From Puniceicoccus vermicola (GTDB taxonomy: Bacteria > Verrucomicrobiota > Verrucomicrobiia > Opitutales > Puniceicoccaceae): a stretch of DNA of 64,000 nucleotides. This document shows positions 22,574 to 64,000 of the stretch, piece after piece. The stretch is from contig NZ_JACHVA010000022.1 in NCBI RefSeq assembly GCF_014230055.1, positions 1-64,000 on the forward strand, in the 5' to 3' direction. Below the pieces are notes generated by a model. It was given only the letters and a program-made list of their open reading frames with translations. It did not search any database and was not told the origin of the DNA. Within the stretch, counting starts at the first letter, position 1, and every line of letters starts with the position of its first letter. Made by a program: the position numbers and the translations under genes.

Positions 22574-22598
22574 GACACGAATAATTTGAAGTTATGGA

Positions 22599-23072
22599 TT
22601 ATGCGGATTTCCCCACACCGAAGTATCCGGCGAGAGTCTTCCAGAAGCGTTTCGACCAGCCGATGTAGCTGACGAGAAAGTCTGAGCCGAGATCGGCCCT
22701 CTCGAGAAAGGGCTTCGCCCCAAGCTCGGCGAGGCGGGCATCGATCTGCTTCCCGCACTCGCAGTAAAGCGGATACTCGGTATCGCCGAGAGCGAGAACC
22801 GTGTAATCGATGGCGGACAGGTCGATGTCGGCCGTCGCGAGCTCATCACAGAAAGGCTTGGCCTTTGGTGGGGGCAGCCCGTCATCCCAGGTCGAGATGA
22901 TGATGAGGACGGCGCCCTTGAGTTCGGCCAATTGGGCGGTCGTGTACTCGGCGAGGTTCTGGACCTCGACCTTCACCCCGTTCTTTTCCCCTTTGGCGGC
23001 AACTTTGTTCGCCAAGCCTTTGCAATTCCCTGTTTCGGTCCCGTAGAGGACAGTCATAGCCAGATCAGACAT
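22599..23072 (-). CDS. Flavodoxin, predicted nitrogenase electron donor (CysJ/CPR-like type)
   Basis: 157 aa FMN protein with the phosphate loop YGTETGNCKGLAN at 10-22, WDDGLPPP near 62-69 and LALGDTEYPLYCECGKQID. The LGDTxYPxxCxxGKxxD pattern resembles the FMN domain of sulfite reductase and P450 reductase more than classical NifF. A Shine-Dalgarno AGGAAAT precedes the ATG. Its place between nifV and nifJ argues that it carries electrons from NifJ to NifH, so it plays the NifF role. Whether it is orthologous to NifF is uncertain, so no symbol is given. Confidence 0.8.
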   Translation of the reverse strand: MSDLAMTVLYGTETGNCKGLANKVAAKGEKNGVKVEVQNLAEYTTAQLAELKGAVLIIISTWDDGLPPPKAKPFCDELATADIDLSAIDYTVLALGDTEYPLYCECGKQIDARLAELGAKPFLERADLGSDFLVSYIGWSKRFWKTLAGYFGVGKSA

Positions 23073-23081
23073 GATGATTTC

Positions 23082-24227
23082 CTATTCTTGGTTTTTATTT
23101 TGGTTCGTTTTCACCGACTGAAGTCGGAGGATTTCAATTACTTCCTGAGGCGAGAGAGCACGGTCCTTTCGCTCCACTTCGGCGCGGACGGTGGAAAGAA
23201 GGTTTCGCAAAGTACTTCTCTCGACGATGAACCCCGCCTCTTCGAGGGCCATCCGGATCCCCTCGGATCCGGAATGTTTTCCGATGACAAAAGATTGGGC
23301 TCCGGCTCCGATCTCCTCGGCGGAGATCAACTCGTAGGCGGAGCGGTCGACGGCCATGCCTCGCGTATGGATCCCGGTCTCGTGCCGAAAGCAGGCCGTG
23401 CCCACCACCGGTTTGTTCCCCGGCAGCACCCGCCTCGAGGCCTCTGCGACCATTTCGCTCAACGATTGCAACGAGTCGGAGTGAATCCCTGTCTCGATTT
23501 TGCAAGCATGCCGAAGGGCCATCACCACTTCTTCGAGAGCGGCGTTTCCCGCCCGCTCTCCAAGACCGTTCACGGTAACGCTAATCGCTTCGGCACCCGC
23601 CTGTACCGCCGTGACCGAATTGGCAACCGCCATGCCGAGATCATTGTGCCCGTGAAACTCAATGGGGAGATCCGGCACTCCCGCATGAACCTGGGCCACC
23701 AGTTCGCGGGTTCTCTTGGGATCGAGGATGCCGACCGTATCGGCAATTCGGAAACGGGAAGCGCCCTGCTCTCTCGCAGCTGCTGCGAGCATGACAAGGA
23801 ACTCCGGATCGGCGCGGGAGGCATCCTGCGCCCCGACTGTAAAATATTCGAATCGCCCGCGGGCCAGAGAAGAGATCCGGCGCAGGGTCGCAAAAACCCA
23901 ATCACTATTCTTTCCCCAGATCCGCTGATGGAGGCCACTCGCCGGCAAGGAAAAATGGAACCCCGCCGCACCGGTTGCAGCGGCCGCAAAAAGATCCTCC
24001 TCCGTGGCGCGCCCCCAGGTCAGGGTCCGCGCCGGAAGGATGGCCTCCGCGACCTGGCGGATCTCAGAGACCTCGAGAGGTCCCATCGCCGGAATGCCCA
24101 CCTCGAGTTCCTGCACACCCGCTTCTACCAGCGTGCGGGCGATCGCGAGTTTCTTTTCCAAAGAGAAAGAGACTCCCGCCGCCTGTTCGCCGTCGCGCAA
24201 AGTGGTATCGATCAGGTGGACGCCCAT
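23082..24227 (-). CDS. nifV: Homocitrate synthase
   Basis: 381 aa. It condenses acetyl-CoA with 2-oxoglutarate to homocitrate, the organic ligand of FeMo-cofactor. Motifs: [16 protein letters not shown] (metal-binding Asp, catalytic Arg) at the N-terminus, [13 protein letters not shown] (HxH metal site), [14 protein letters not shown], and [10 protein letters not shown] at 24227 is chosen, 7 bp after the ferredoxin stop with AGGAAAA as ribosome site; the longer frame overlaps the ferredoxin gene. The nif context supports NifV rather than LeuA. Confidence 0.92.
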
Positions 24228-24234
24228 GGTTTTC

Positions 24235-24543
24235 CTAGTCCTTGATGAGGTTCGTCTCGCAGACTTCGCCTTCTTCGATCGAATCGAGAATCTCGTCAAT
24301 GAGCTCCTCAGTGGCGCGTTCGTAGAAGCGGCCGGATGGGTAATCAATGACGACAGGCCCCCGCGTGCACATATTGAGGCAGCCAGTCATCGCAACTTCG
24401 ACGCCATCGAGCATCCGGTCCTGGATCTCGCTTTGGGCGTAAGATAGTAAGTCGATGGATTCTTTGTTGCAGCACACTCCCTTGAGTTCCCCGCTCGCGC
24501 GGGCGCTGCCACAAATGAAGAGATGATGGGATGGTTTGTTCAT
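24235..24543 (-). CDS. Thioredoxin-fold [2Fe-2S] ferredoxin
   Basis: 102 aa with Cys at 11, 24/25, 55 and 59 ([17 protein letters not shown] ... [10 protein letters not shown]), the ligand pattern of the thioredoxin-like 2Fe-2S ferredoxins such as the Clostridium pasteurianum protein and Shethna protein I. Those are linked to nitrogenase, either in electron transfer or redox control. It sits between nifB and nifV, a frequent place for it. Exact function is inferred. Confidence 0.85.
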
Positions 24544-24594
24544 GATGATTGATGATGGAATAAGATTCTATTTCGTTCGTCGGATTCGATAGGC

Positions 24595-25890
24595 TCAGCC
24601 GCAGCCCGTGCCGTCTCCACCGCAGGAGACCCCTTCTCCACAACAATCCATGTGGCGCTCGAGCGTGGGGGGAAGAGCTTCGCCGTGGAAAACGTGGGAC
24701 AGGCCCGCTTCGATCATTCCTTCCATCTGGATGACTCCGATCCCGTGGTCGCGAAGCCTTTCCAGTGGAGTCCGCCCGGCGGCACTCACGAGGATCACGC
24801 GGCAGTCGTGGAGGGTCTCGGCAATCGTCTTCCAGCGATCGTCCCGCCCTCCGGGAGCGGCCGCTGGACGCGTGTCGATTTGAATAAACTCTTCCGGATC
24901 CTCCGGATCTTCAGCGAAGATAGCAAATTCGCGGACCTCACCGAGGTGTTGGTTGACCAGCATCCCTTCCCGGGTTCCCACGGCCACATAGGGCCGATTC
25001 TGGGTCGGGTCGATCGGGAGCCGCGAACAACCCTTGATCAACTCGTTTAAATCTTCGCTCATCGGCTCACTGAGCTTCCCGATCGCATCGGCCCGGCAAC
25101 GCGCGCAATGGGTCATCTGATTCATGTACTCGCCGCACTTCAGGCGGGTGGCGAAGCGCATCTTGGCATCCGGTTCGATCAGATTTTCAAAGACCGTATC
25201 CTTCGTCGGCAACAGTGGGATGCAGTTCATGATGTCAGCCCCCATTGCGGAAACCGTCTTGGCGATCTCGGGGAGGTGGTCTTCGTTGATTCCCGGCACG
25301 AGGATCGAATTTACCTTGGCGATCATGCCATACTCTTTGATCCAGCGGATGGCCTGCATCTGCTTCTCGATCATCAACTCCCCGGCCTTCGTCCCCCGGC
25401 GAATCATCTTGTCATGCCGAGCCCAGGCGTAGATCTTTCCGGCGATCTCGGGATCCGTGGCGTTCATGGTAATCGTCACGTGGCTGACCTTCAGTGCGGC
25501 CAGCTCTTGGACGTATTCCTCCGTCAAACCCAGTCCGTTCGTGGAGAGGCAGAGAATCATCGAGGGAAAACGTTCTCTGACCCGCCGAAAGGTATCCATC
25601 GTCTCTTCCGGATTCGCGAATGGATCCCCCGGGCCCGCGATGCCGACGACGGCAATGTCCTCGCGGAGTTCCATGATTTTTTCCAGGTAAGCCACGGCCT
25701 GCCCCGGAGACAAGATGGTCGAAGTCACCCCGGGGCGGCTCTCATTGACGCAGTCAAAATCCCGATTGCAGTAGTTGCACTGGATGTTGCAGCGAGGCGC
25801 CACCGGAAGGTGAACCCGACCGTGGGTCGAGCAGGCCTCGCGATTGAAACAGGGATGGTTTTCGAGTGTAATTTCAGAGGGAGTGATCAT
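24595..25890 (-). CDS. nifB: NifB, FeMo-cofactor precursor (NifB-co) synthase
   Basis: 431 aa. Radical SAM motif CNIQCNYC with Cys at 34, 38 and 41; N-terminal HPCFNREACSTHGRVHLP carries additional NifB cluster ligands (including ExxCxxxxR-like CSTHGR). Middle part VGIAGPGDPFANPEET is the SAM-binding GGEP-like motif. From about residue 310 a NifX-like domain follows (VAVGTREGMLVNQHLGEV), so this is the two-domain NifB. A Cys-rich tail (CCGEGVSCGGDGTGCG) ends the protein. It builds the 8Fe-9S-C core passed to NifEN. Confidence 0.95.
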   Translation of the reverse strand: MITPSEITLENHPCFNREACSTHGRVHLPVAPRCNIQCNYCNRDFDCVNESRPGVTSTILSPGQAVAYLEKIMELREDIAVVGIAGPGDPFANPEETMDTFRRVRERFPSMILCLSTNGLGLTEEYVQELAALKVSHVTITMNATDPEIAGKIYAWARHDKMIRRGTKAGELMIEKQMQAIRWIKEYGMIAKVNSILVPGINEDHLPEIAKTVSAMGADIMNCIPLLPTKDTVFENLIEPDAKMRFATRLKCGEYMNQMTHCARCRADAIGKLSEPMSEDLNELIKGCSRLPIDPTQNRPYVAVGTREGMLVNQHLGEVREFAIFAEDPEDPEEFIQIDTRPAAAPGGRDDRWKTIAETLHDCRVILVSAAGRTPLERLRDHGIGVIQMEGMIEAGLSHVFHGEALPPTLERHMDCCGEGVSCGGDGTGCG

Positions 25891-25905
25891 TGTATGTCCT
25901 TGTTG

Positions 25906-27333
25906 TTATAGGTAGCTATACCCGGTTTCGTTGTTCTCTTGGCGGGCTTCCAATAGAGCATTCACTACGCGATCGAAGAGGTATTGAGTTCCCCGGTATC
26001 CGACCGAAAGCTCCCGCTGACCGCCAAAACGATCGTGTAAGGGAAATCCGATGCGAAGGAGAGGAATCCCGAGCTCGCGGGCCAAGGGATAGCCCTTGCT
26101 CGATCCAAGAAGCAGATCGGGCTTGCGAGCACGGGCTCGCACCGAGATGGAGGCGTGATCCACCCCGGAAAGAGCTTCAATATCTTCCATACCGCCCTCA
26201 ATCTCGGAGGCGAGACGGCGGTCCCAACGGGGCACCTTGGATCCGGTGGCACAGATGATCGGGCGGATGCCGATCTCCGAAAGAAATCCTGCGAGGCCGA
26301 CGACGAGGTCCGGTTCACCGTAAACCGCTGCGGTCTTACCTGAAACGTATTTGTGGGCGTCCACATAGGCGTCGACCAGGCGCCCTCGCTCTTTGCGAAA
26401 GACCTCGGGCATCTGGTTTCCGGAAATCTCTGAGAGCGAAGCGTAGAGCCGGTCCGAAGCGGCAATTCCCAACGGCCACCCGTGGAGGAAATTGGGAATT
26501 CCGTGACGGCTCTCCAGCAGAGCCCCGGCAGACTCTTCCCGCTTCTCCCGGGAGTGGCCGAACTCAATCGTGGCTGCCGCTTTGCCCATGGCGCGAATTT
26601 CTTCGAGCGGGGTTCCGCCGGGAGAGATCCGGTGGTAGGCATCCCATCCCCCACCCTCGAGGGTCTCGTTGTAGTCTGGGAGCAAGGTGGGCTTCAATTG
26701 GTAGGCCCGGCAGATCTCCGCCAAGTGGCGCAGATCCGCACAGGACATCATTCCGGGAAGAACATTTACCCGGCCCGCAACCGGACCTTCCGGTGCGACT
26801 TCGACAAAAGAGCGAACCACTTCGAGAACGGCGGCCTGAAATCCTTCGGCATGCGTCCCGGTGTAAGCGGGAGTGGATACGTGCACCAGCGGCATCTCAC
26901 TGCCCCGGGTATTTTGGAAATCCCGAATCATCCCGATCATGTGTTCGCCAATCGTTTCCGAGAGGCAGGTCGTCGCGACGCCAATGATTTCCGGATGATA
27001 CTGCCGAATGACGTTGTCGAGACCATCGGCAAAGTTCTTGGCCCCTCCAAAGATCGCATCATCCTCGGTAAAGCTGGAGGACGCGATGTCGACTGGCTCG
27101 CGAAAGTGGCTGATCATGTAGCGCCGGATGTAGGTGGCGCAGCCCTGGCTTCCGTGCAGGAACGGCAGGCAACCTCGGATTCCCTTGAAGACCATGGAAG
27201 CCCCGAGCGGCGAGCAGAGCTTGCAGGCATTGCGGGTGGCCGCAGCCGGGATGTCTCCCCCCGCGGGGAGCCCATCAGCTCCACAGACGTCGTTGGCCAT
27301 CGGCGGGTTTACGACTTTCAAACTCTGATTCAT
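25906..27333 (-). CDS. nifN: NifN, FeMo-cofactor scaffold beta subunit
   Basis: 475 aa NifK-like protein. Cluster ligands in NACKLCSPLGAS and GSQGCATYIRRYM, and TTCLSETIGEHM, are in the positions expected for NifN/NifK. It overlaps nifE by four bases (ATGA at 27330-27333), so the two should be made in equal amounts. NifEN accepts NifB-co and matures it with Mo and homocitrate. Confidence 0.93.
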   Translation of the reverse strand: MNQSLKVVNPPMANDVCGADGLPAGGDIPAAATRNACKLCSPLGASMVFKGIRGCLPFLHGSQGCATYIRRYMISHFREPVDIASSSFTEDDAIFGGAKNFADGLDNVIRQYHPEIIGVATTCLSETIGEHMIGMIRDFQNTRGSEMPLVHVSTPAYTGTHAEGFQAAVLEVVRSFVEVAPEGPVAGRVNVLPGMMSCADLRHLAEICRAYQLKPTLLPDYNETLEGGGWDAYHRISPGGTPLEEIRAMGKAAATIEFGHSREKREESAGALLESRHGIPNFLHGWPLGIAASDRLYASLSEISGNQMPEVFRKERGRLVDAYVDAHKYVSGKTAAVYGEPDLVVGLAGFLSEIGIRPIICATGSKVPRWDRRLASEIEGGMEDIEALSGVDHASISVRARARKPDLLLGSSKGYPLARELGIPLLRIGFPLHDRFGGQRELSVGYRGTQYLFDRVVNALLEARQENNETGYSYL

Positions 27334-28715
27334 GCTTCCTCCTTCGATGCGGCCAGCGACTTCTCAATGGCCATGGTTTTCCGGGGCACAAACTTCCAGA
27401 TGGGGCTCAAGACGCTGCGCGCGACTTCGTCGGCAAATCGCATCATTCCCTCGAACCCGGCCAGCGGAATCTTCCTTTCGTGATTGTGGTCGCAGAAGGC
27501 CACTCCGAGTTTGAAGGCGATCGGGCGTTCCTTAACTCCCCCGATGAAGAGATCGACCTCCTTTTCTAGGACAAACTTTGCCAGCTCCAAAGGGTTTGAG
27601 TCATCGACAATCACCGTGCCGGGATCGCAGATTTCGCGGAGCTGATCGTAATCCTCCTGGCTCCCCGTCTGGGTTCCGGCGAGCACGGTCTGCATCCCGA
27701 GGGCGCGGAGGGCCAGCACCAGCGAGAAGGCCTTGAAGGCTCCGCCAACATAGAGGGCGGCCTTCTTGCCCCGGAGCTGCTTCCGGTATTTGCGAATCAC
27801 TGGAGAATACTTGGCAATTTCCTCGCGAACGAGGGCGGCAGCCCGCTCTTCGATCTCCGGATCGCCGAAAAAGGAGGCAGTCTCGTAAATGGCCCTCGCT
27901 GTATCTTCGAATCCGAAAAAGGAGACTCGGCGCAGAGGGATCCCGTGCTCCTTCTTGAGAAGGTTGGCCAGGTGGGTCATCGAGCCCGAGCACTGCACCA
28001 GATTGAGGGAAGCCCCGTGGCAACGTCTCAGATCGTCGACCCGCCCGTCGCCCGTGATCGTCGAGACGACCTCGATCCCGATCTTTTCAAAATATTCGCG
28101 AATCATCCAGGCTTCCCCGGCGATATTGAACTCTCCGAGAAGGTTTATGCTGTATTTGCTAATTTTCGACGTATCACCTGTTCCCACCAAGCGGTAGGCC
28201 GCCTCACAGGCTGCCTTGTAGCCACTCTTCTTGGTTCCCTTGAAGCCAGGCGAGTCCACCGGAATGACCTCGATCCCTGATTTCTTCGTAACCGTGCGGC
28301 AGACGGCTTCAACATCGTCCCCGATCACCCCGACAATGCAGGTGGAATAGACAAATGCCGCCTTTGGCCGGTAATACGCGATGAGCTCCAGCAGAGAGGC
28401 TTCGAGCTTCTTTTCTCCTCCGAAAACCACTTCCTTTTCGGCTAGATCCGTTGAGAAACTGTTGCGATGGAGCTGAGGCCCCGAAGAAAGAGATCCGCGA
28501 ATGTCCCAGTTGTAGACAGCGCATCCGATGGGTCCGTGGACGATATGCAATGCATCCGCAATGGGATACAAAACCACCCGGGAACCACAGAACGCACAAG
28601 CACGCTGGGTGACCGCACCGGCAGTGCTGCGACGGTCGCAGGAAAACTCACCGGACTCCCCTTTGGTCCAGACCTGCTGCGAGCGGTCCGTTAAGATCTC
28701 GATCTCTTCACTCAT
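27330..28715 (-). CDS. nifE: NifE, FeMo-cofactor scaffold alpha subunit
   Basis: 461 aa NifD-like protein. Cluster Cys in RACAFCGSRVVLYP and GPIGCAVYNWDIRG, TCIVGVIGDDVE, and CSGSMTHLANL, which corresponds to the FeMo-co-ligating region. ATG at 28715 (MSEEIEILTDRS) is chosen; the longer frame has 33 residues translated from a repeat-rich gap. 413 bp separate it from the ferritin gene, so nifEN may have its own promoter or be at the far end of a long transcript. Confidence 0.93.
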   Translation of the reverse strand: MSEEIEILTDRSQQVWTKGESGEFSCDRRSTAGAVTQRACAFCGSRVVLYPIADALHIVHGPIGCAVYNWDIRGSLSSGPQLHRNSFSTDLAEKEVVFGGEKKLEASLLELIAYYRPKAAFVYSTCIVGVIGDDVEAVCRTVTKKSGIEVIPVDSPGFKGTKKSGYKAACEAAYRLVGTGDTSKISKYSINLLGEFNIAGEAWMIREYFEKIGIEVVSTITGDGRVDDLRRCHGASLNLVQCSGSMTHLANLLKKEHGIPLRRVSFFGFEDTARAIYETASFFGDPEIEERAAALVREEIAKYSPVIRKYRKQLRGKKAALYVGGAFKAFSLVLALRALGMQTVLAGTQTGSQEDYDQLREICDPGTVIVDDSNPLELAKFVLEKEVDLFIGGVKERPIAFKLGVAFCDHNHERKIPLAGFEGMMRFADEVARSVLSPIWKFVPRKTMAIEKSLAASKEEA

Positions 28716-28764
28716 GCCCTGCTTCCCCGTTGTTGTTAAAAAATGAATGAAGGCTGCCCTTCGT

Positions 28765-28926
28765 AGCATCGGCTGTAACGCCGATGACCGTCCTCCCCAG
28801 AGCGGCTTCTTCACGGAGCGCGGACTTCAGTCCGCCCCGCATGCCCCTCAGGCATTTCTCTGCGAAAATCGAGGAAAACCGATCCTCCGCGACCGATCCA
28901 ACGGGGCGGACTGAAGTCCGCGCTCC
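28765..28926. repeat. Palindromic repeats in the ferritin-nifE gap
   Basis: GTAGCATCGGCTGTAACGCCGATG (28764-28787 region) and a long inverted repeat GGAGCGCGGACTTCAGTCCG ... CGGACTGAAGTCCGCGCTCC (28815-28926). The second is the same family as at 3.9 and 53.1 kb, but with C-G in place of A-T in the stem on both sides. There is no supported gene in the 413 bp, and no convincing sigma-54 promoter was found. Confidence 0.75.
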
Positions 28927-29128
28927 ATTGACCGTGAGGGCTTCCTCGAAAAATAACCGGAGGGAATCAGCGCTACGAGCACCCAAGCGATCAGAGGCCT
29001 GAGAGGAACGGAGGGATATTCCGTCAGCAAAGACGACGACTACCTTTACTGAACTCCCACTGACGGACCCGTGCCCCTCTGACCTCAAAATGCTCATGCG
29101 CTGATTCTCCGGATAATTCGCTCCCCTA

Positions 29129-29626
29129 CTAGCCGAGGGTCTGGATGATATGACGGTCGAGATTCAAGAGAGACCCTGGGCAGTCGCACTTCTCCAGAAG
29201 GCCAACCATGGTCGCCGCCCAAGCTTCTTCCTCGACCTGCTCTTCAATGAAGTTGAGTAGGAAGGGTACCGAGCGGGGATTGCCCGAGGCGTTCGCCTCG
29301 TCATAGCATTCGATAATGAGTTGAGTGTTCTTCAACTCGAGGCCGCGAGCAAACAGCGCAACTTCCAGAAGACTATCGAACTCGGTCCGGGGAGGCTCCA
29401 TGCCGCCGATCTCCGGCTTCATCGAACGCTCACTCATGTGCGCGATAAACTTGCGGGCATGCTCACCCTCCTCGCTGGCCTGCTTGCGGAAAAACTCCGC
29501 AAAGCCGTTGAATTCATTATCGGCGCACCATACCGCAAGCGCCTCATAGCTCAAGGCGGCGTAGAACTCGTGATTCACTTGCCGGCACAGGAGTGCCGGC
29601 AAGTCGGATTTTTGGGTTTCACTCAT
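29129..29626 (-). CDS. Ferritin-like iron-storage protein in the nif operon
   Basis: 165 aa four-helix diiron protein. Ferroxidase residues are visible: HEFYAALSYEA (first Glu), ASEEGEHARKF (ExxH), and IEEQVEEEAWAATM in the last long helix. It belongs to bacterial ferritin (Ftn) rather than bacterioferritin (no obvious heme Met). It sits 27 bp after nifK, on the same strand, before nifE. It may store or buffer iron for the large demand of nitrogenase assembly, or protect it from oxygen radicals. It is not among the standard nif genes. Confidence 0.85.
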   Translation of the reverse strand: MSETQKSDLPALLCRQVNHEFYAALSYEALAVWCADNEFNGFAEFFRKQASEEGEHARKFIAHMSERSMKPEIGGMEPPRTEFDSLLEVALFARGLELKNTQLIIECYDEANASGNPRSVPFLLNFIEEQVEEEAWAATMVGLLEKCDCPGSLLNLDRHIIQTLG

Positions 29627-29653
29627 AATCTTCTTCCTTTGGGCGAACCGGAC

Positions 29654-31015
29654 TTACTGCACCAGCTCGACTTCGTGGTCGGGCAGGAGTCGATCATCGC
29701 GATCGAAGAACGCGTCGGTGATCTTTTCGACCATTCGCATGGCTCCGGCGTATCCGACGAGCGGGAAAGCACGGTGTCCGACCCGGTCCAGCATCGGGAA
29801 TCCGAAGCGGACGAAGGGAATGTCCTCCGCGCGAGCGACATACTTCCCATAGGTATTTCCCATGAGTAGGTCGACCGGGTTGTTCTTGATCCACTGGTGG
29901 AGGTAGTGCAGATCGCTGAAGGCCTTGACTTCCGTATTGGGGGCCTTGGCTTTCATCTTGCGTTCCCACTTCTTCCCGGGAGTTCCGGTGATGGCGATCG
30001 AAGCTTCCATGCCCAGTTCGGTCACGAAATCGATCATGCTGCTGACGTGGTCCGGATCCCCGAAGATGGCTACCTTCTTTTTATGGAGATACTGCGACAT
30101 GTCGCTGATCATATCGATCAGACGACCGCGTTCAGCATCGAGCCAAGCTGGAACCGCAGTGTCCCCGGCAACCCGTAGCGCGTTGACAAACTCATCCGTG
30201 GCGCGGACCCCGATCGGCAACTCAGCGATTTTTCCTTCGACTCCACATTTCTTTTGGAGGGAAGTCACCGCTGCAGTGCTGGCCAAGGGACCAAGTCCGA
30301 TCGATACCATCGTGTGGCCCATCTCACGGAGGTCGGAGATCTTCGTTCCGCCGTCCGGATACATCTTGTAGTGTCCGTCGTAAGGCGTATCGAGCACATC
30401 CGAAGCATCAGGGGCGAGGATGAACTCGACTCCCACCGCAGTCGCCAGGCGCTTGATCTCCCGCATGTCCGATGGATCGACGAACCCAGGGAAGATGGTG
30501 ATGGTGTTCTTCCGGGTGTCTCCCGTTTCGGCAAGATATTTCACGAAGGCTTCGCACTGATTCGAGAAGCCGGTGACATGACTCCCGACAAAGCTCGGCG
30601 TATTCGCGTGAATGACGGTCTTCCCTTCGGGGATCTTCCCGGACTCGATGGCCTTCTTGATGATGGTCGGGATGTCGTCCCCGATCACTTCCGAGAGACA
30701 GGTCGTGTGCACGGCCACAATCTCCGGCTCATAGATGGTGAAGATGTTTTCCAGCGCGCTGGTCAGATTGGCCATTCCGCCGAAAACGGAGGCCCCTTCG
30801 GTGAAGGAACTGGTCGTGGCGACGACCGGCTCCTTGTAATGACGGGTCAGGTGACTGCGATGATAAGCGCAGCATCCCTGTGAACCGTGTGAGTGCGGCA
30901 TGCACCCGTTCACTCCCAGCGCCGCATACATGGCACCGATCGGCTGACAGGTTTTCGCCGGATTGACGCGGAGCGCCTTGCGTTCGCGGAGTTCCGCTGT
31001 GGTTCCTTCCAACAT
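29654..31015 (-). CDS. nifK: Nitrogenase MoFe protein beta subunit
   Basis: 453 aa, about 60 aa shorter at the N-terminus than the Azotobacter type, as in NifK of clostridia, green sulfur bacteria and Desulfovibrio. P-cluster ligands: C23 (KTCQPIGAMYA), C48 (HGSQGCCAYHR), C106 (TTCLSEVIGDD). FTEGASVFGG follows the family. It forms the alpha2beta2 MoFe protein with NifD; 38 bp separate them. Confidence 0.97.
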   Translation of the reverse strand: MLEGTTAELRERKALRVNPAKTCQPIGAMYAALGVNGCMPHSHGSQGCCAYHRSHLTRHYKEPVVATTSSFTEGASVFGGMANLTSALENIFTIYEPEIVAVHTTCLSEVIGDDIPTIIKKAIESGKIPEGKTVIHANTPSFVGSHVTGFSNQCEAFVKYLAETGDTRKNTITIFPGFVDPSDMREIKRLATAVGVEFILAPDASDVLDTPYDGHYKMYPDGGTKISDLREMGHTMVSIGLGPLASTAAVTSLQKKCGVEGKIAELPIGVRATDEFVNALRVAGDTAVPAWLDAERGRLIDMISDMSQYLHKKKVAIFGDPDHVSSMIDFVTELGMEASIAITGTPGKKWERKMKAKAPNTEVKAFSDLHYLHQWIKNNPVDLLMGNTYGKYVARAEDIPFVRFGFPMLDRVGHRAFPLVGYAGAMRMVEKITDAFFDRDDRLLPDHEVELVQ

Positions 31016-31054
31016 GGTATGATTTCCTTTTTAAGTGTTTGAATTGATTTACGC

Positions 31055-32719
31055 TTAGGCCGTGACTTCTTCCGAAACGGTAGCTTCGGGCGCTTCGTCG
31101 GCTTCGTGCCAGGGAGCGCGGGTCAGCTCCCAGACGCGGGAGGAGGTCATGCGGTCGATTTCCTTGAAAAAGTTGATCGCACCCTTGAATCCGGCGTAAG
31201 GTCCGCCGTAGTCGTAGGAGTGGAGCTGCTTACAAGGCACCCCCATCTTCTCGATCACGTATTTGTCTTTGACCCCGGAGCCGATGACGTCGGGCTTGTA
31301 GAGTTCGATCAGCTTCTCCATCTCGTGATGGGAGATGTCATCGATGACGAGTGTGTCCTTTTTCATCTGCTTCAACATCCCTTCGTAGTCGCTGAAGGCG
31401 AAGCCGGACTCTTCGAGAGACTTCTTCCGATCGACCGTCTTGCGAAGGTTGAAGCGCTCTGGATCTTCTTCGATCGTGAGTTCTTCAATATTTCGTGAAT
31501 CCGCATCGACCTTGATGCTCGGCAGAACCTCGCGGCCTTCGTAGTCGTCCCGGTGGGCAAACTCGTAACCGGCGGCAATCACCTTCATCTCCATATCCTC
31601 GAAAAGATCCTGGTAGTGGTGCGCCCGACTGCCTCCCACGAAGAGAGCGGCGGTCTTGCCATTGGTGCGGGTCTTCACGTCTTCGATCACGGGACGGACC
31701 TCGCTCATCTCGGCGGCGATCACTTCCTCGACCCGGTCGATGAGTTTCTTCTCTCCAAAATATTGGGCGATCTTGCGGAGGGACTTCTTCGTGCCTTCCA
31801 ACCCGATGAAGTTGACCTTGAACCAGGGAATCCCAAACTTGGTCTCCATCATCTCGGCCATGTAGTTGATCGAGCGATGACACATGACCACATTCAGATC
31901 CGCCATGTGCGCATTGCAGATCTCGTCGTAAGTGACCCCACCAGAGAGCGTCCCAATGATCTTGATTCCGCAGAGGGCCAGAATCCGGTCGATTTCCCAC
32001 GCGTCCCCGCCGATGTTGTATTCACCGAGGATGTTAATCGTGTATTCGCCTTTAGAGGGAGTGTCGTCCAGGCCGATCATGTTCTTAAACACCCCGTTAT
32101 TTGCGATGTGGTGACCCGCCGACTGGGAGACTCCCTTGTAGCCTTCGCAGGAGAAACCGAAAATGTTGATCCCCAGTTTCGCCTTCATTTCCTTACAGAC
32201 CGCGTGAATGTCGTCTCCGATCAGACCGACCGGACAGGTGGCGTAGACTGAGATCGCCTTCGGTTTGAACTCATCGTAGGCTTCCTGAATCGCATCCTTC
32301 AGAAGAGTCTCCCCGCCGAAAACGATGTGATTCTCCTGCATGTCGGTCGACATTGAATACTGCAGGTAATTGGTTTCACCCTCGTTGCGGATCTTCGTGA
32401 AGTTCCGGCGGGAGAGCCAGCTGTAGTAACCACAACCGATCGGGCCATGGGTGATGTGCAGGATGTCGTAGATCGGTCCGATGACCACCCCTTTACAACC
32501 TGCATACGAGCAACCGCGCTGGGTGATGATGCCCGGGACCGTCCGACTGTTCGCGCCAATCTCGGCGGGAGTCGAAGGGTTCTCGTTGACCATCATCTGC
32601 TTGCTGCGCTTGCGGAGAGTCTTCTTCGGATAAATATCGAGCATCTTCTCCCGCGCTTCGGCGGCGGAAGGCCCGGTAGGCCCCATGGGCGAATCGTTCT
32701 TAGCGTTTTCTTCTGACAT
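31055..32719 (-). CDS. nifD: Nitrogenase MoFe protein alpha subunit (long form)
   Basis: 554 aa from ATG 32719 (a GTG at 32758 would add 13 residues). P-cluster Cys in QRGCSYAGCKG, GPIGCGYYSW and TCPVGLIGDD; FeMo-co ligands Cys in VVMCHRSINY and His in KQLHSYDYGGP; the QSAGHHIAN site matches the homocitrate-contacting QSLGHH motif. All point to Mo-nitrogenase. About 50 extra residues (around VLPSIKVDADSRNIEELTIE) lie before the last third. This insertion is typical of group II NifD from anaerobes. With short NifK it defines the cluster type. Confidence 0.97.
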   Translation of the reverse strand: MSEENAKNDSPMGPTGPSAAEAREKMLDIYPKKTLRKRSKQMMVNENPSTPAEIGANSRTVPGIITQRGCSYAGCKGVVIGPIYDILHITHGPIGCGYYSWLSRRNFTKIRNEGETNYLQYSMSTDMQENHIVFGGETLLKDAIQEAYDEFKPKAISVYATCPVGLIGDDIHAVCKEMKAKLGINIFGFSCEGYKGVSQSAGHHIANNGVFKNMIGLDDTPSKGEYTINILGEYNIGGDAWEIDRILALCGIKIIGTLSGGVTYDEICNAHMADLNVVMCHRSINYMAEMMETKFGIPWFKVNFIGLEGTKKSLRKIAQYFGEKKLIDRVEEVIAAEMSEVRPVIEDVKTRTNGKTAALFVGGSRAHHYQDLFEDMEMKVIAAGYEFAHRDDYEGREVLPSIKVDADSRNIEELTIEEDPERFNLRKTVDRKKSLEESGFAFSDYEGMLKQMKKDTLVIDDISHHEMEKLIELYKPDVIGSGVKDKYVIEKMGVPCKQLHSYDYGGPYAGFKGAINFFKEIDRMTSSRVWELTRAPWHEADEAPEATVSEEVTA

Positions 32720-32796
32720 TGGATTAAACTTCGGTGTTGCGGCTGGGCGGTTGACCACTGCCCCCGGGTTCCGACCGGTGACAGTGGAAATTCACC

Positions 32797-33744
<948 letters not shown>

Positions 33745-33855
33745 ATCCAAATTCAGAACAACGTAAGACATTCATGGCCATGGAGATAAAAATTTAAACC
33801 GCCCTACTTCCGCCCATTGGCGGTTTTTCTAAGCCCCTGAAAACGTAGCCAATCT

Positions 33856-33903
33856 CCGACACAAACGTCGGACGTAGGTCCAAATCCTACATTTATGTAG
33901 GAT
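33856..33903. promoter_or_regulatory. Candidate enhancer for the NifA-type activator
   Basis: Perfect palindrome ATCCTACATttATGTAGGAT (33884-33903) with a third half-site GTAGG at 33874-33878, and a second inverted repeat CCGACacaaacGTCGG (33856-33871). It lies about 140-165 bp upstream of the proposed -24 box, the usual enhancer distance. The classical NifA box TGT-N10-ACA was not found. An 8-bp stem AAACCGCC/GGCGGTTT followed by T (33796-33829) lies between enhancer and promoter. The rest of the 415-bp gap is A/T-rich without a gene. Confidence 0.5.
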
Positions 33904-34087
33904 CCCTTTCTTCATAAATTTTGTATCTTTATTTCCCCGACAGGATAAGGGACCCTTCTTAAAAGAATTTGATCCGCTAATCGCTCAAGTGTGAGAATGG
34001 CTAATACCTCAAGAAACTACGCTTATCCCCCATGGAAAAGGGGAGTGAAAGCCTCATTCGGCACCCTTTAAGCTGCATCCAGCAATC

Positions 34088-35710
34088 GTGATCGACTCAA
34101 AACAATGCCAGAACAAAGACTGCACGATCGCCCGCGAGGGGCCTTCGCTCGAAATGCTGAACCGATCCACCGGGATTAACTGCCGCTCTGTCCAGGAACT
34201 GGGCCTCCTCTTTGCCGTCAGCCGCAGTCTCGAGAACAGCTTTGATTTGACCGACGTCGCACGGCCCGTCCTCCGGCGTCTCCAAGACTGGATGGGACTC
34301 GAGCGGGGCACCGTCGCCATCCTCAACCGCGACACCGGGGGCCTTCTCGTCTCCGAGGCCATCGGGCTCCCGCGCGATCTGGCTGCCAACGAGTATTTCA
34401 AACTCATTGAACCTCATCTCGAACATGTGGTTCGCAAGAAAGACGCGATCATCGTCCACGATCTGGACCGTTGGTCCCGGGAGAGCGACATACCCTCCGA
34501 AACCATCGAAAAACTGCAACTGCGCCCCCAGACTGGCTTGATCTGCATCCCCCTCAAATTTGCCGACGAGATCATCGGGACCCTGAGTATCGAAAGACGC
34601 CGCAATCCACAAACCGGCTGGGAGGCAGATTTGCGCCTCTTATCGATGCTCGCCTCGATTATCGCCCAGGCGACGAAGGTGCGCCAAGAGGCCGCCGAGC
34701 AGATCCAAAGCCTTCGCGAGGAAAACGACCGGCTTCATCAGAAAATCGGCTCGGGCAATCGCCCTCAGGACATGATTGGTTCTGCCAGTTCGATGCGGGC
34801 GGTCTATCTCCAAATCGACCAGGTGGCCCCCAGTCTCACCACGACCCTCATCCGGGGCGAGAGCGGGACCGGGAAGGAGCTTGTGGCCAAGGCTGTCCAC
34901 GAACGCAGCAAACGGGCGTCTAAGCCGTTTGTAAAATTCAACTGCGCAGCCCTCCCCGATTCGATCATAGAGAGCGAGCTCTTTGGTCACGAGAAAGGAG
35001 CCTTCACCGGGGCCCTCGCCACCCGCAAGGGCCGGTTTGAGATGGCGCATGGGGGAACCATCTTTCTCGACGAAATCGGAGACATCTCGATCGCCACCCA
35101 GGTCAAACTTTTGCGAGTGCTGCAGGAAAAGGAATTCGAGCGCGTGGGCAGTCAGGAGCCCCGCCGCGCCGATGTTCGGGTGATCGCCGCCACCAGTCGT
35201 GATTTGGAAACGATGATGGCCGAAGGCACCTTTCGGGAGGACCTTTATTATCGGCTCAACGTCTTCCCCATCTACGTGCCGCCGCTCCGGGAGAGAAAGT
35301 GTGACATTCTGCTGCTCTGCGACTTTTTCGTCGAAAAGTATGCCGACCGGATCGGGGTCAAAGCCCCCCGCATCTCCAGCGCCGCCATCGACCTTCTCGC
35401 CAGCTACCATTGGCCCGGCAATGTCCGGGAACTGGAAAACTGCATGGAGCGGGCCGTCATCATCGCCAAGGGGGAATCCATCAAGGCCCACCATCTTCCG
35501 CCCACTCTACAGAAGAAATCGCCGCGCGAAGGAGCCGTCTCCGACACCCTCGAAGACGCCCTCGAATCCCTCGAGCGGGAAATGCTGGTCGACGCCCTCA
35601 AGGAAACTGGCAGCAATATGGCCGAGGCCGCCCGTCGCCTCGGAATGACCGAGCGCAAAATGGGCCTCCGGGTGAAAAAATACGGGATTGATCGCGAGCG
35701 GTATAAGTGA
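34088..35710 (+). CDS. nifA: NifA-type sigma-54-dependent activator
   Basis: 540 aa. GAF sensor domain (about 35-195), AAA+ domain with Walker A GESGTGKE (257-264), sigma-54 contact loop GAFTGA (304-309), Walker [12 protein letters not shown] (322-332), and a C-terminal Fis-like helix-turn-helix ([21 protein letters not shown]). It is divergent from nifH. It should activate nif genes in response to nitrogen or oxygen status. The Cys motif of oxygen-sensing rhizobial NifA between AAA+ and HTH is absent, and no nifL is present, so the signal input is unclear. It starts with GTG at 34088; ATG at codon 23 is an alternative. Confidence 0.9.
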
Positions 35711-53298: not shown

Positions 53299-53652
53299 TT
53301 ATGCTTTCTCCACAAGAGCGTCATTCTCTTGAGGCTCCATCAATACTTCCGGATGCTTTTGAGCCACACGAAGGATCTTCAGCGCTGGCCCTGAAGGTTT
53401 GCGACTCCCCCTTTCCCAACTGGCTGCTGTAGTTGATCCAACATTCAGCATTCGGGCAAAAACCGGCTGGCTCATTTTGAGAGTTTGGCGAAGCGCAATA
53501 ATTTGCTTTGGGCTCATCGGAGCAGGCTTTTTCGGCAATGCAAACTTGGACGTACGCATAGTGATCTTGCGCTTGCCTTTAACGTGATCGCGCACGACTT
53601 CAACTGCTCCGATAAAATCATCGGCATCAAATTCGATCTCTGTGTCTTTCAT
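53299..53652 (-). CDS. HigA/NadS-like antitoxin with HTH
   Basis: 117 aa. XRE-type HTH in IIALRQTLKMSQPVFARMLN followed by TTAASWERGSRKPSGPA. It is the second gene of a toxin-antitoxin pair: its ATG overlaps the toxin stop by four bases (53649-53652). It would neutralise the toxin and repress the operon. Confidence 0.88.
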   Translation of the reverse strand: MKDTEIEFDADDFIGAVEVVRDHVKGKRKITMRTSKFALPKKPAPMSPKQIIALRQTLKMSQPVFARMLNVGSTTAASWERGSRKPSGPALKILRVAQKHPEVLMEPQENDALVEKA

Positions 53653-53981
53653 TTTTCGTATACCTCCTTAATTTCAGTCACAAGTTTAGCTACCCGCTTC
53701 TTCTGTTCCGGCTTTAAGTCTGTGATATCACCCTTGGTGAAAAGATAAAAAAGATAGATGATACCCGCCTTCGGAAGGTATAGGTAAATAATTCGAGCGC
53801 CTCCGCGCTTTCCCTTACCTTTTGCGCCCCAACGCATCTTTCGCAAACCACTAAGATGGGGAATAACATCTCCAACTTTGGGGTTTGCAACCAATTCAGT
53901 CTGTAGTTCCCGATATTCATCATCTTCAAAAACTTGCAGGACATTTTTCGTAAAGGCGGGCTGCTCGACTAACGTCAACAC
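53649..53981 (-). CDS. RelE/HigB-type toxin
   Basis: 110 aa. FTKNVLQVFEDDEYRELQ, GLRKMRWGAKGKGKRGG, ARIIYLYLP and LFTKGDITDLKPEQKK match the RelE-like toxin family (PF06296 type), basic and mRNA-cleaving at the ribosome. Toxin first, antitoxin second, as in higBA. No damage visible. Confidence 0.88.
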   Translation of the reverse strand: MLTLVEQPAFTKNVLQVFEDDEYRELQTELVANPKVGDVIPHLSGLRKMRWGAKGKGKRGGARIIYLYLPKAGIIYLFYLFTKGDITDLKPEQKKRVAKLVTEIKEVYEK

Positions 53982-60429: not shown

Positions 60430-61166
60430 CCATCAAGCTAGGACGCTACAAGCTCGGTCCTGCCACAGAGGACGCTCGCCTGGGGCACCCCTTGGCACGA
60501 GAGATCGTGAGCCGCGCTGCCGATACCGAACCGCCTCGCTGTAATCTGACTTTCGACTACACAAATTGCCCGCTTCAAGTCTCCATCCTGAAGAGCTTCG
60601 TCGGTAAATCAGGGAACCTTGTCCTGACGAAACTCACCATCGACAGCGCCGAGACCTAAGACCACCTCATCTGGGCCGACCGCGCAGACGACGGTACGAC
60701 CCTCGACTCTGAGAAGTGCTATAGCCTTTTCTCCATTCCTGCCACGATTGAAGCAGCCAACAATGACCCAGCCGATCTCAGCGAGCTGACCGAATCTGCC
60801 CCCCAATCGATTCTCGCTCAAATTGCCGAGCAGAACGCTAACTACTTCGACGAAGAGATGGACAAACTGGAACGCTGGGCCGACGACCGCAAACGCAGCC
60901 TCGAAATCCAGATCAAAGACCTCGACGTTGAGATCAAGACCCTCAAGACCGTATCCCGCAAGCCGACAAAGCTGGAGGACAAGGCCAAAGCCAAGCGACA
61001 GATCAAGTAACCGGAGCAAAAGCTCACGGATTTCCGCCGTCAACTCTTTGATGCGAAGGACGCCATCGACCAAGACAAGGACGGACTCCTGAGCGAAGTC
61101 GAAGAGCTCCTTAAGCAAACGACCCAGCAAACCACACTCTTCCAGATCAAGTTTACCATTATTTAA
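60430..61166 (+). pseudogene. Remnant of an SNF2-family helicase C-terminus (two in-frame stops)
   Basis: One frame reads RYKLGPATEDARLGHPLARE, LTFDYTN, SFVGKSGNLVLTKLTID, DHLIWADRADDGTTLD, NANYFDEEMDKLERWADDRK, LDVEIKTLK and LFDAKDAIDQDKDGLLSEVE. This is the order and type of segments I know from the C-terminal part of large SNF2/DEAD helicases of defence loci. The frame is broken by TAA at 60657-60659 and TAA at 61008-61010 and ends with TAA at 61164-61166. The helicase motor itself is missing, so the gene is dead. The ORF on the opposite strand is a shadow. Confidence 0.7.
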
Positions 61167-61226
61167 TACCCCGCAAAACCCAAAACAAAACTTGAAATCG
61201 TCAATATTTTGCCGATTATTGATTTT

Positions 61227-62444
61227 ATGATCCATTCACTGGCCATAAATAACTTCTCATCTTTCCACGAATCCACATTTGTGGAGTTTACTTCTGGTCC
61301 AAAGGCAGGAGATCGGAAGATCTTTCTTTCGTCCGTGCTATCGGATGTCTCCATCAACTCAGTTACGGGCGTATTCGGAGCCAATGCCTCGGGCAAAACC
61401 AACCTGCTCAAGGCCATTGCCTTCCTGCGCTACTTCATTCTGGATTCCGCCTCAGAGAAGCCTGACTCCAAGATTCCCGTCGAACCCTTCCATTTTACGG
61501 AAGGCGCGGCAGAACGCCACAAGCCGATATTCTTTCAACTGGAGTTCGAGTATGAGGAAAAGCTTTATCGCTACGAGTTGGAGATTTCTCACCAAAGAGT
61601 GCAATTCGAGGCTCTTTTCCGCAAGGATCAGCGCTTCCGTTATCTCTTTGAGCGTTCGTGGAAGCCAGCGAAGGGCGATTACGAATTCAAGCACCAGGAC
61701 ATCGGCCCGTCCAAACAAGTCGCACAGCGGGAAAACGCTTCCTTCATCGCATCCGCAGTGCTCCAAGAGCATGAATTCGCCAAGTATATCTCAGGCTATT
61801 TCAAGAAGTGCTACGTCAACGTCCACCTTTACGGGCGGATGCCCACACATGACCCAGAGTCAACTAATATCATCAAGGCCACCAACTACTTCTCAAAGCA
61901 TGAGAACTACCTGAACACGGCCATCCGCCACATTGCTTTCGCGGATACGGGCATCAGCGACATTGAGTTGGAGCCCTTCAAATTCATCGACGAAGAAGGC
62001 AAGGAGCAATCCTTGCTCCTACCCATGGCCAAACACCAGGTCGAAGGGCATGACTACAAACGTCCGCTCATGACAGAGTCGCGCGGCACCCAAGCCCTTT
62101 TCGTCCTGCTTCGCTACATCCTGCCCGTATTGGAAACAGGCGGCGTTGCCGTCATCGACGAGTTTGAAACGGGGCTGCACTCCCATGTGGTCAAATACGT
62201 GGTCGAGCTCTTTTACTCCAAGAAGACCAATCCGAAGGGGGCTCAGCTCATTGCCAACTTCCATACGGACTACCTGCTGCAATCGACTCTGGAGAAATAC
62301 CAGATCGTCTTCACCGAGAAGGACCCAGATACCCAGTCCACCGAGGCCTGGCGCTTGGATAAGGTCAAGGGAGTCGCCCGCAACGCCAACAACCACTATG
62401 CCAAATACCACGCAGGCGCGTATGGCGGCATTCCCAACCTCTGA
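61227..62444 (+). CDS. AAA family ATPase, RloA/AbiLi-like defence component
   Basis: 405 aa. N-terminal INNFSSFHESTFVEF and Walker A FGANASGKTNLLKA; C-terminal signature GTQALFVLLRYILPVLETGG and Walker B VAVIDEFETGLHSHVV, with a late His switch in ANFHTDYLL. This is the ABC/OLD-like ATPase type (AAA_15/AAA_21). With the RloB gene 12 bp downstream it matches the AbiL abortive-infection arrangement. ATG at 61227 is preferred to an upstream TTG at 61209. Confidence 0.85.
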   Translation: MIHSLAINNFSSFHESTFVEFTSGPKAGDRKIFLSSVLSDVSINSVTGVFGANASGKTNLLKAIAFLRYFILDSASEKPDSKIPVEPFHFTEGAAERHKPIFFQLEFEYEEKLYRYELEISHQRVQFEALFRKDQRFRYLFERSWKPAKGDYEFKHQDIGPSKQVAQRENASFIASAVLQEHEFAKYISGYFKKCYVNVHLYGRMPTHDPESTNIIKATNYFSKHENYLNTAIRHIAFADTGISDIELEPFKFIDEEGKEQSLLLPMAKHQVEGHDYKRPLMTESRGTQALFVLLRYILPVLETGGVAVIDEFETGLHSHVVKYVVELFYSKKTNPKGAQLIANFHTDYLLQSTLEKYQIVFTEKDPDTQSTEAWRLDKVKGVARNANNHYAKYHAGAYGGIPNL

Positions 62445-62456
62445 TTCGAAGAAACG

Positions 62457-62987
62457 ATGTCACGCAGTAATCCTTTCAATCAGAAGACCCGCCAGATACA
62501 GCACACTACCCTGATCGTAGTTGAGGGCGACACCGAACTCGCCCTCGTCAAATACCTCAGGGCGCTCTGCGGAAGGAATTGCGGCACAAGAGTCTCCCCT
62601 GAAAACGCCCATGGAGGCAGCGGCGATGTCGTGTTGGAGATGGCTATCAAGCTGGGTAAGGATTTCGATGCCCGTGCTTGCATTTATGACATGGACCGCG
62701 CCCCAAAGCTCAAGAAGCACATCCGCAAAGCCAAGCAACTCGGCATCCACGAGATCAAATCCACCCCGTGCATCGAGGCGTTGCTCCTAGAAATCCTCGG
62801 AGAGAAAGTCCCCGCTTCTACCGATGATTGTAAGCGGGCGATGCAACGTATCCTCGGGGAAGACAGCCTTACCGAAATCCCCACCTTTGAGAAGTATTTC
62901 CCGAAGGAGCTGATCGAACGACGCAAGTCAGAGGTCCCCCAACTCGACGTGCTCATGGGGCTGATTAACCGTAATTCAAAAAAGTAG
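62457..62987 (+). CDS. RloB-like protein (AbiLii-type)
   Basis: 176 aa. TTLIVVEGDTELALVKYLRA with Glu in the TOPRIM-like first strand, ARACIYDMDRAPKLKK with the Asp pair, and STPCIEALLLEILGE. This is the RloB family, thought to be a nuclease partner of the ATPase. Intact and cotranscribed with it. Confidence 0.87.
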   Translation: MSRSNPFNQKTRQIQHTTLIVVEGDTELALVKYLRALCGRNCGTRVSPENAHGGSGDVVLEMAIKLGKDFDARACIYDMDRAPKLKKHIRKAKQLGIHEIKSTPCIEALLLEILGEKVPASTDDCKRAMQRILGEDSLTEIPTFEKYFPKELIERRKSEVPQLDVLMGLINRNSKK

Positions 62988-63024: not shown

Positions 63025-63210
63025 ATGAAGCTCCCGAAACAAGCTGCCGAAAACATCACAAAGGCACTGACATCCGTAAGTCTACTAGAGGAAGCTACCG
63101 CAAAGGAAGTAGTCGATGCCCTGGATGGCCAAAAATCAGTGAATTGGAACATCATTCTGACCAAACAATTTAAGGCCGAGAAAGGAGATCAAGATGAAGT
63201 TGAGTCTTAA
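63025..63210 (+). CDS. Small protein preceding an SMC-like ATPase (61 aa)
   Basis: MKLPKQAAENITKALTSVSL..., mostly helical, ending KAEKGDQDEVES. Its 3' end overlaps the ATPase gene by 17 bp in another frame and contains that gene's ribosome site AAAGGAG. Such coupling argues that it is real and is made with the ATPase. No homologue recalled. Confidence 0.6.
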   Translation: MKLPKQAAENITKALTSVSLLEEATAKEVVDALDGQKSVNWNIILTKQFKAEKGDQDEVES

Positions 63211-64000
63211 AGCATTCCGCGGGGTCAACGACTCGTTTGAGGTTAAGTTCGATACAAATCAAAACCTCACAGTCCTTTACGGTGAAAATGGGAGTGGCAA
63301 AACTACGATATCTGATGCCTTGGAATTTGTAGTCGATGGCAAAGCTGGGTCCCTGGAAGACAAATCTTTGGATGGAAAGGCGCGACTGCCCCAGTTAGTC
63401 AATGCTCAAAGAAAGAAGGCTGACCTTTCTGTGTCTTTGGAAATTCATAACAAAACGCGCTCTGCAACACTACCAGCCTCTAAGGTAGTTCATAGCGGAG
63501 AACTGGATCAGCAATTTAAGGTTCTTAGTAGAAAGAATATTACAAGACTGATCGAGGAGGAGCCAGCAAAGCGCTTCAGTAGAATTCAAGACTTCGTTTC
63601 CATCCCTGTCCTTGAGCGTGAAGAAAAGGCTCTCAATGCTCTTCTTCTCGCCGAAAAGAAAATTTTCGACAGTCAATCCAGGCTCGTCGAGCAAGCACAT
63701 GAAATACTTGAAGAGTTATTCACCGAGCATGCCGACAAAACCAAGTATGGTGACCGACAAAAGGACTGGAAAGAAGACATCCTCAGCGAGAGCGAGGAGA
63801 CAATCACGGAACACCTCAATCTCCTTCAGGAACTCCACCAACAAGTCAAGCGTCTACGTGCTGACTTCACGCCTCTAGGCGGAAGCTACCCTGCCGTAAA
63901 AATGGCTCAGAGAACCTTTGATAATGAGACTAAAGCCCTCACCAAACTAATAGCAGATCACAGTGGGGACTTGGCCAAGGCTTTCAAAACCCTTAAACAT
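63194..64000 (+). CDS. SMC/RecF-like AAA ATPase, 5' part (runs off the window)
   Basis: 269 codons without stop to the window end. MKLSLKAFRGVNDSFEVKFD, Walker A LYGENGSGKTTISDALEF at about 27-44, then long coiled-coil-like stretches (EREEKALNALLLAEKKIFDS, ETITEHLNLLQELHQQVKRL). The N-terminal half of an SMC/RecN/RecF-like or Lamassu/ABC-3C-like ATPase; the C-terminal Walker B part is outside. AAAGGAG lies 8 bp before the ATG. It follows a small gene and the AbiL-like pair, so probably a second defence system. Confidence 0.8.
   Translation, partial: MKLSLKAFRGVNDSFEVKFDTNQNLTVLYGENGSGKTTISDALEFVVDGKAGSLEDKSLDGKARLPQLVNAQRKKADLSVSLEIHNKTRSATLPASKVVHSGELDQQFKVLSRKNITRLIEEEPAKRFSRIQDFVSIPVLEREEKALNALLLAEKKIFDSQSRLVEQAHEILEELFTEHADKTKYGDRQKDWKEDILSESEETITEHLNLLQELHQQVKRLRADFTPLGGSYPAVKMAQRTFDNETKALTKLIADHSGDLAKAFKTLKH

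Follow-up and report, generated by a model that had tools for sequence, protein, structure and literature searches.

A decayed SNF2–type III restriction-modification operon in Puniceicoccus vermicola, and the small gene–ATPase pair that it shares with intact relatives

The window analyzed here, bases 1-64000 of the 65363-base contig NZ_JACHVA010000022.1 (C22) from the draft genome of Puniceicoccus vermicola (5.2 Mb, 143 contigs), ends in two overlapping genes, one for a protein of 61 amino acids and one for the front of a Rad50/SMC-like ATPase. An earlier note, made from the letters alone, took this pair for a candidate new defence system. Does the pair belong to one, and if so, what might it do there? 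Comparison with related loci shows that the window end is the leftover of a decayed multi-gene anti-phage operon, and that this copy is the fossil of a real variant.

The gene pair at the window edge and the decay of this copy

The small gene (63025..63210, + strand) was identified as an open reading frame and through a structural model, an alignment and leave-one-out profiles. It overlaps the ATPase reading frame (63194..64000, + strand, open at the window edge) by 17 bp and contains a GGAG ribosome site for the ATPase gene (63184..63187, + strand), spaced 6 nt from the ATPase ATG; both the overlap and the internal ribosome site had been read correctly in the earlier note, as had the GENGSGKT motif, found at ATPase residues 30-37. 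The N-terminal part of the ATPase within the window matches Pfam AAA_23 (1.1e-15), and its zinc-hook-like CPVC motif is encoded past the window edge.

The contig extends 1363 bases past that edge. The ATPase reading frame continues rightward and is then broken by an IS3-family element: it is interrupted after C22:64108 (305 codons) and ends at C22:64111, inside the element, whose inverted repeat starts at C22:64109 and whose transposase matches NF033516 (E 2e-78). A search with an intact relative, P0003, placed the second ATPase half on contig C96, beside the other end of the IS. Because the two halves match P0003 residues 1-305 and 376-777, about 70 ATPase codons are missing; no short duplication was seen in the IS flank sequence that was read. 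We infer the join of C22 to C96 from gene content, in a genome that has six full copies of the IS and in which contig C103 also starts inside one.

Upstream lies the remnant of a DrmD/RapA-like SNF2 helicase (60435..61154, + strand; E 2.1e-42, 39% identity). What remains of it is its C-terminal part, corresponding to residues 704-949 of an intact 952-aa relative at locus L005, and it has two in-frame TAA stops. Between this remnant and the small gene sits an AbiL pair (61209-62987), both genes free of stops: an AbiLi-like AAA/ABC ATPase (61209..62444, + strand; PADLOC AbiLi 6.9e-70, Pfam AAA_21 1.2e-27) and an AbiLii/RloB-like protein (62457..62987, + strand; PADLOC AbiLii 1e-11, Pfam RloB 3.5e-8). 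On C96, the ATPase half carries the sequence RNAIGCH and is followed by a fragment of a type III methylase gene (Mod; residues 5-101 of the relative at L023) with two TAG stops. The restriction gene (Res) has no match anywhere in the draft genome's 143 contigs, and an intact set of Mod and Res was not found there. Since the helicase and methylase remnants hold stops, Res is absent and the ATPase is cut, the module in P. vermicola is very probably dead, through the IS and the loss of the ∼70 codons.

Other genes were seen in passing. On C96, past the Mod remnant (locus L017, 226-1924), there are reading frames which, judged by reading, resemble toxin-antitoxin genes of the HigB/HTH, Phd and VapC kinds. 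Elsewhere in the window, a nitrogen-fixation cluster (18983-35710) has nifH, nifD, nifE, nifB and pyruvate:flavodoxin oxidoreductase above their NCBIfam cut-offs, nifK, nifN and nifV under theirs, and a regulator that reads as NifA-like (34088-35710). In a probable toxin-antitoxin pair (53299-53981), an HTH protein resembles MqsA-type antitoxins at 1.8e-12, short of the cut-off, and its partner reads as RelE-like and has no NCBIfam match.

The intact operon family and its variable slot

The 305-aa ATPase fragment alone led nowhere as a query for related loci. A search with an ATPase alignment (A1) gave 49 loci, of which 28 were used (L019-L045 and L047); in L046 and L048-L067 the match covers only a short piece, and these were set aside. 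Together with four Hymenobacter/Fibrella plasmid loci, these make up the study set of 32. Among the first plasmid matches, H1, H2, H4 and H5 were examined and H3 was left out.

In intact members, the gene order is SNF2 helicase, small gene (about 60-80 aa), ATPase, type III Mod and type III Res. The helicase is present in 22 of the 32 ATPase loci, Mod (cluster C2) in 16 and Res (cluster C3) in 14, with all five genes together in 14. PADLOC matches in one such locus, L037, are strong for DrmD (helicase, 1.1e-208), MTase_III (4.8e-218) and REase_III (9.8e-198), and the downstream genes of the intact relatives, having both Mod and Res, amount to type III restriction-modification (R-M). The records name Pseudomonadota (alpha, beta and gamma), Deltaproteobacteria, Nitrospira, Verrucomicrobia, Elusimicrobiota, Armatimonadetes, Chloroflexi, Acidobacteria and Hymenobacter. 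Within the phylum of P. vermicola, the N-terminal part of the ATPase is matched at E<=1e-8 in 2 of 387 sampled genomes, the window's own included.

Several loci depart from the intact order. Mod is lacking in six of the 22 helicase loci (L019, L036, L038, L041, L042 and L031); a contig end explains this in L019, L036, L038 and L041, and in L031 the gene is plainly absent. In L042 (2118-3545), the ATPase front runs in frame into an end that reads as Res-like, as though the middle of the operon had been deleted. L028 has the ATPase and no helicase of the family's cluster. Five Hymenobacter/Fibrella loci (L006-L009 and L040) have no helicase, Mod or Res, and all five retain the small gene with the ATPase. 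In two Hymenobacter plasmids among them (L006 8398-11772, L008 8368-11730), two more genes come after that of the ATPase, one for a protein of 642 aa, which has no Pfam match in L006, and one for a metallo-beta-lactamase-fold protein. L035, L039, L044 and L047 are distant loci. Two of these share a three-gene set: first a ∼155-aa gene (cluster C18; L044 3372-3848, L047 4051-4512), matching no Pfam family at cut-off, then a small ORF of another kind, then the ATPase. A phage or viral origin of the family was considered and rejected, as there was no match in phages and none confirmed in viral contigs.

The operon also carries other cargo. An AIPR cluster is found in L020, L027, L036 and L043 (L020 tested: AbiU 2.3e-34, AIPR 4.5e-35), AbiEi/AbiEii in L028 and L041 (L028 tested), a DUF2130 cluster in L023, L025 and L041 (L023 tested) and, between Mod and Res, a PDC-S02/PD-DExK cluster in L024 and L026 (L026 tested). 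We also examined eight SNF2/Mod plasmid loci that lack this ATPase (H26, H27, H56, H57, H59, H65, H77 and H79; the remaining matches were left out). By annotation, a DNA methyltransferase lies downstream of the SNF2 gene in all eight, and a DEAD/Res gene is in view in seven. The slot holds AIPR, HTH and VapC genes in Deinococcus and an Abi gene in Salmonella, and it is empty in Ketogulonicigenium; the small gene was not found in any of the eight, where the best matches, with E values between 0.038 and 3.3, were all turned down. Across 14 loci, evolutionary distances of helicase and Res are well correlated (0.83), whereas those of ATPase and helicase are only weakly so (0.34), as expected for an exchanged cassette.

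The ATPase, its C-terminal domain and the small protein

What kind of ATPase occupies this slot? All 32 ATPase reading frames have a zinc-hook-like CPxC, a CxxC insert of the RloC type, and the closest sequence relatives with solved structures are Smc and Rad50. LmuB, rather than an ABC-HEPN family, is the best PADLOC match in 15 of 15 members (best 5.3e-27), and the PbeC matches are only weak. The C-terminal domain has features of its own. The motif RNxxG[AC]H occurs in 25 of 32 ATPase reading frames, or 25 of the 27 that keep the domain; the seven without it are truncated or deleted (L036, L038, L041 and L042), stop before the domain (L047) or are very distant (L039 and L044). R115, N116, G119 and H121 are invariant in all 18 aligned sequences. 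This agrees with the HEPN motif Rx4-6H, including a polar residue after the R, and the HEPN motif Ex3[KR] is half present, with Glu42 invariant and the basic residue at +4 not conserved. In terms of the anticodon-nuclease triad R-x3-E-x36-52-H, as given in PMC2610378, Glu42, Arg115 and His121 are invariant, and the position four residues ahead of Glu42 holds no conserved Arg throughout.

A structural model of the domain, built from the 18 sequences (pLDDT 85.3, pTM 0.83), points the same way. In a VIA-align comparison, where families without a listed row are not excluded, the first 13 entries are HEPN-type with Z from 7.8 to 4.6, and the first non-HEPN row is vinculin (Z 4.5), though a Z under 8 (under roughly 13 where folds are helical) may reflect a common arrangement. 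Seven of the 13 are HEPN by title or abstract: 5yep (SO_3166), MntA-HepT 6m6u, 6m6w and 7bxo, and 3o10, 1wol and 9oik (HepS). The other six are four Csm6 entries, whose C-terminal domain we take to be HEPN, and 2q00 and 1wwp, presumably HEPN as well. With Foldseek the model had no confident match (best E 0.69), none of the 18 members matched a HEPN family of Pfam, and the alignment of the domain against solved-structure sequences led nowhere. For a helical fold, Z values of this size are middling by themselves; it is because motif and fold combine that we consider the C-terminal domain likely to be HEPN. To judge by its conserved residues, it is probably an RNase.

The same ATPase can be read another way. 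As a Rad50/SMC-like DNA sensor or loader, a complex of ATPase and small protein would load on or loop foreign DNA on behalf of the helicase and Res; the small protein would be a kleisin- or DndE-like accessory, and the C-terminal domain would serve as a noncatalytic docking site. Such a role would suit the LmuB, Smc and Rad50 relationships, the universal CPxC and the linkage to an SNF2 helicase and Res, and PMC10853773 proposes it for DndD/CxC ABC ATPases with small partners. However, an invariant RNxxG[AC]H within an otherwise variable domain looks catalytic, five loci have the pair but neither helicase nor Mod nor Res, and ATPase and helicase distances are weakly correlated compared with those of helicase and Res. 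We therefore regard a DNA loader as possible but rather doubtful, and favor the reading of the ATPase as a nuclease with a HEPN domain.

With leave-one-out profiles, in which each locus's own sequence is omitted, the small gene at the ATPase start is the top match at E<=0.01 in 28 of 33 loci, and at E<=1e-8 in 27. It is top but weak in L019 (0.066) and L035 (1.6), and was not found in L039, L044 and L047. Even with the window and its nearest relative removed from the profile, the 61-aa ORF is the top six-frame match in its own locus (E 0.0021; next 2.4). These profile matches indicate that the pairing of small gene and ATPase is not chance, and the earlier note's picture of a coupled small protein and SMC/Rad50-like ATPase in a defence setting holds across the relatives. 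Its remark that the small protein is unlike described ones is likewise borne out by Pfam, NCBIfam and PADLOC, none of which has a match at E<0.02. Trp41 is invariant in all 23 aligned sequences and in the four Hymenobacter/Fibrella plasmid sequences. The model has three helices (pLDDT 78.9, pTM 0.56); Foldseek found no confident match for it (best E 3.2), and an alignment against solved-structure sequences led nowhere. Mirror-tree correlations (0.47 with the ATPase, 0.51 with Res) give no clear partner. The survival of the pair in loci that lack the rest of the operon makes the small protein the ATPase's likely dedicated partner, perhaps an inhibitor, perhaps an activator.

Could the small ORF instead be mainly a translational coupler or leader, its peptide having no function of its own? 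The overlap and internal ribosome site would fit, but conservation at the protein level across phyla, with one invariant Trp, makes this improbable. In L028, moreover, the small-protein domain is fused to the end of an AbiEii-like ORF, and in L032 the small gene is kept even though 273 bases, a 39-bp tandem array among them (5794-6021; 5.8 copies, 97% match), separate its end from the first ATPase residue matched. A fusion of small protein and ATPase in L032 was rejected, as the intervening stretch is this array. Least of all do we expect an ordinary housekeeping repair gene of the recF/recN/sbcC type: the AAA_23/SMC_N head is common to both, but NCBIfam RecF, RecN and SMC models score far under their cut-offs, the matches are as rare in the phylum as noted above, the context is one of R-M, Abi and plasmid genes, and the recF/recN or housekeeping surroundings that the earlier note named as its refutation did not appear downstream.

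Known systems and a proposed role

The earlier note had likened the pair to Lamassu and ABC-3C systems. The SMC-like ATPase, with its LmuB matches, does resemble that of Lamassu, but it has its own HEPN-like C-terminal domain. For the operon and cargo proteins scanned in L020, L023, L026, L028 and L037, neither LmuA nor LmuC is among the best 25 matches of each, and both are also absent from PADLOC results for the ten flanking proteins of L021, L024 and L037. The small protein has no Pfam or PADLOC match to an ABC-3C middle component. Membership in Lamassu or ABC-3C is not supported. The effector, which the earlier note had placed downstream, outside the window, appears to be mostly the ATPase's own HEPN-like C-terminal domain; in intact relatives, Mod and Res come after it. 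The earlier note had not anticipated the IS3-family break in this copy or the decay of the operon around it.

Other systems share single components. The family helicase is nearest to the DrmD model of DISARM, but DrmA, DrmB and DrmC are absent among the ten flanking proteins of L021, L024 and L037, and the operon genes are Mod and Res. Hma, or BREX-related type 1, is rejected in that the ATPase is AAA_23/SMC-like rather than a DUF499-type HmaC, and HmaA is only a weaker helicase match (1.9e-52). In Dnd/PbeABCD, a small protein, PbeB, stands beside a zinc-hook CxC ABC ATPase, and PMC10853773 proposes PbeB as a negative regulator; in contrast, the small protein here has no PbeB match in PADLOC at E<=1. 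The family has Mod and Res in common with type III R-M systems and differs from them in what comes before these genes: an SNF2 helicase, then a slot of variable cargo in which the small gene and the ATPase lie.

Among the closest parallels are PrrC and RloC. P0003 does not reach Pfam AAA_13 (PF13166; 22.8 bits against a cut-off of 36), the model that we take to define PrrC and RloC heads. What PrrC and RloC have in common with the family, according to PMC2610378 and PMC3710099, is an ABC head, a C-terminal HEPN RNase (a probable one here) and R-M linkage, with RloC also having a coiled coil and a zinc hook. In these papers, ABC-HEPN proteins within R-M operons have already been described, and PrrC is silenced by the type Ic R-M enzyme EcoprrI and released by a phage anti-restriction peptide. 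The family here differs in its type III Mod and Res, SNF2 helicase and dedicated coupled small gene, and the passages of PMC2610378 and PMC3710099 consulted mention no small gene of this sort. The APECO1_4465 and ERFG_01251 groups, ABC ATPases fused to HEPN, are placed by PMC3710099 in prophage islands or near CRISPR loci. The same paper gives ERFG_01251 an MNT-type HEPN, and the best fold rows for the C-terminal domain here include MNT-HEPN structures. We did not find an SNF2–type III operon with a small gene and ABC-HEPN ATPase named in the searches made, nor the operon or the small gene described in titles and the beginnings of abstracts; a prior description may exist.

By analogy with PrrC and RloC, we propose that the pair is a module in which a backup RNase has its own small regulator, and that it rides in the variable slot of an SNF2–type III R-M operon, a reading to which we give about even weight. 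Mod, Res and the SNF2 helicase would form the first line, modifying self DNA and cutting foreign DNA. The ATPase-HEPN protein would be the second line: with its Rad50-like head and zinc hook it would sense DNA ends, abnormal DNA or a restriction complex that has been blocked; once triggered, it would cut cellular RNA and stop the infection, as PrrC does beside EcoprrI. The small protein, a subunit made just before the ATPase, would most likely silence or gate it. A more specific version can be offered only tentatively: a widespread two-gene toxin-regulator cassette, in which the coupled ∼60-aa three-helix protein with its invariant Trp silences a zinc-hook ABC-HEPN RNase between helicase and Mod, guarding the operon in the manner of PrrC and EcoprrI. 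The RNase would be set free when a phage inhibits restriction or when DNA is damaged.

For type Ic R-M, a backup nuclease of the ABC-HEPN kind is already known in PrrC, but what keeps such nucleases silent is seldom clear. Here a dedicated, coupled small partner is conserved in many phyla, which would allow a simple two-gene test of silencing. The slot of the SNF2-Mod-Res operon, with its AIPR, AbiE, AbiL, VapC and ABC-HEPN genes, is a ready place to seek more defence genes.
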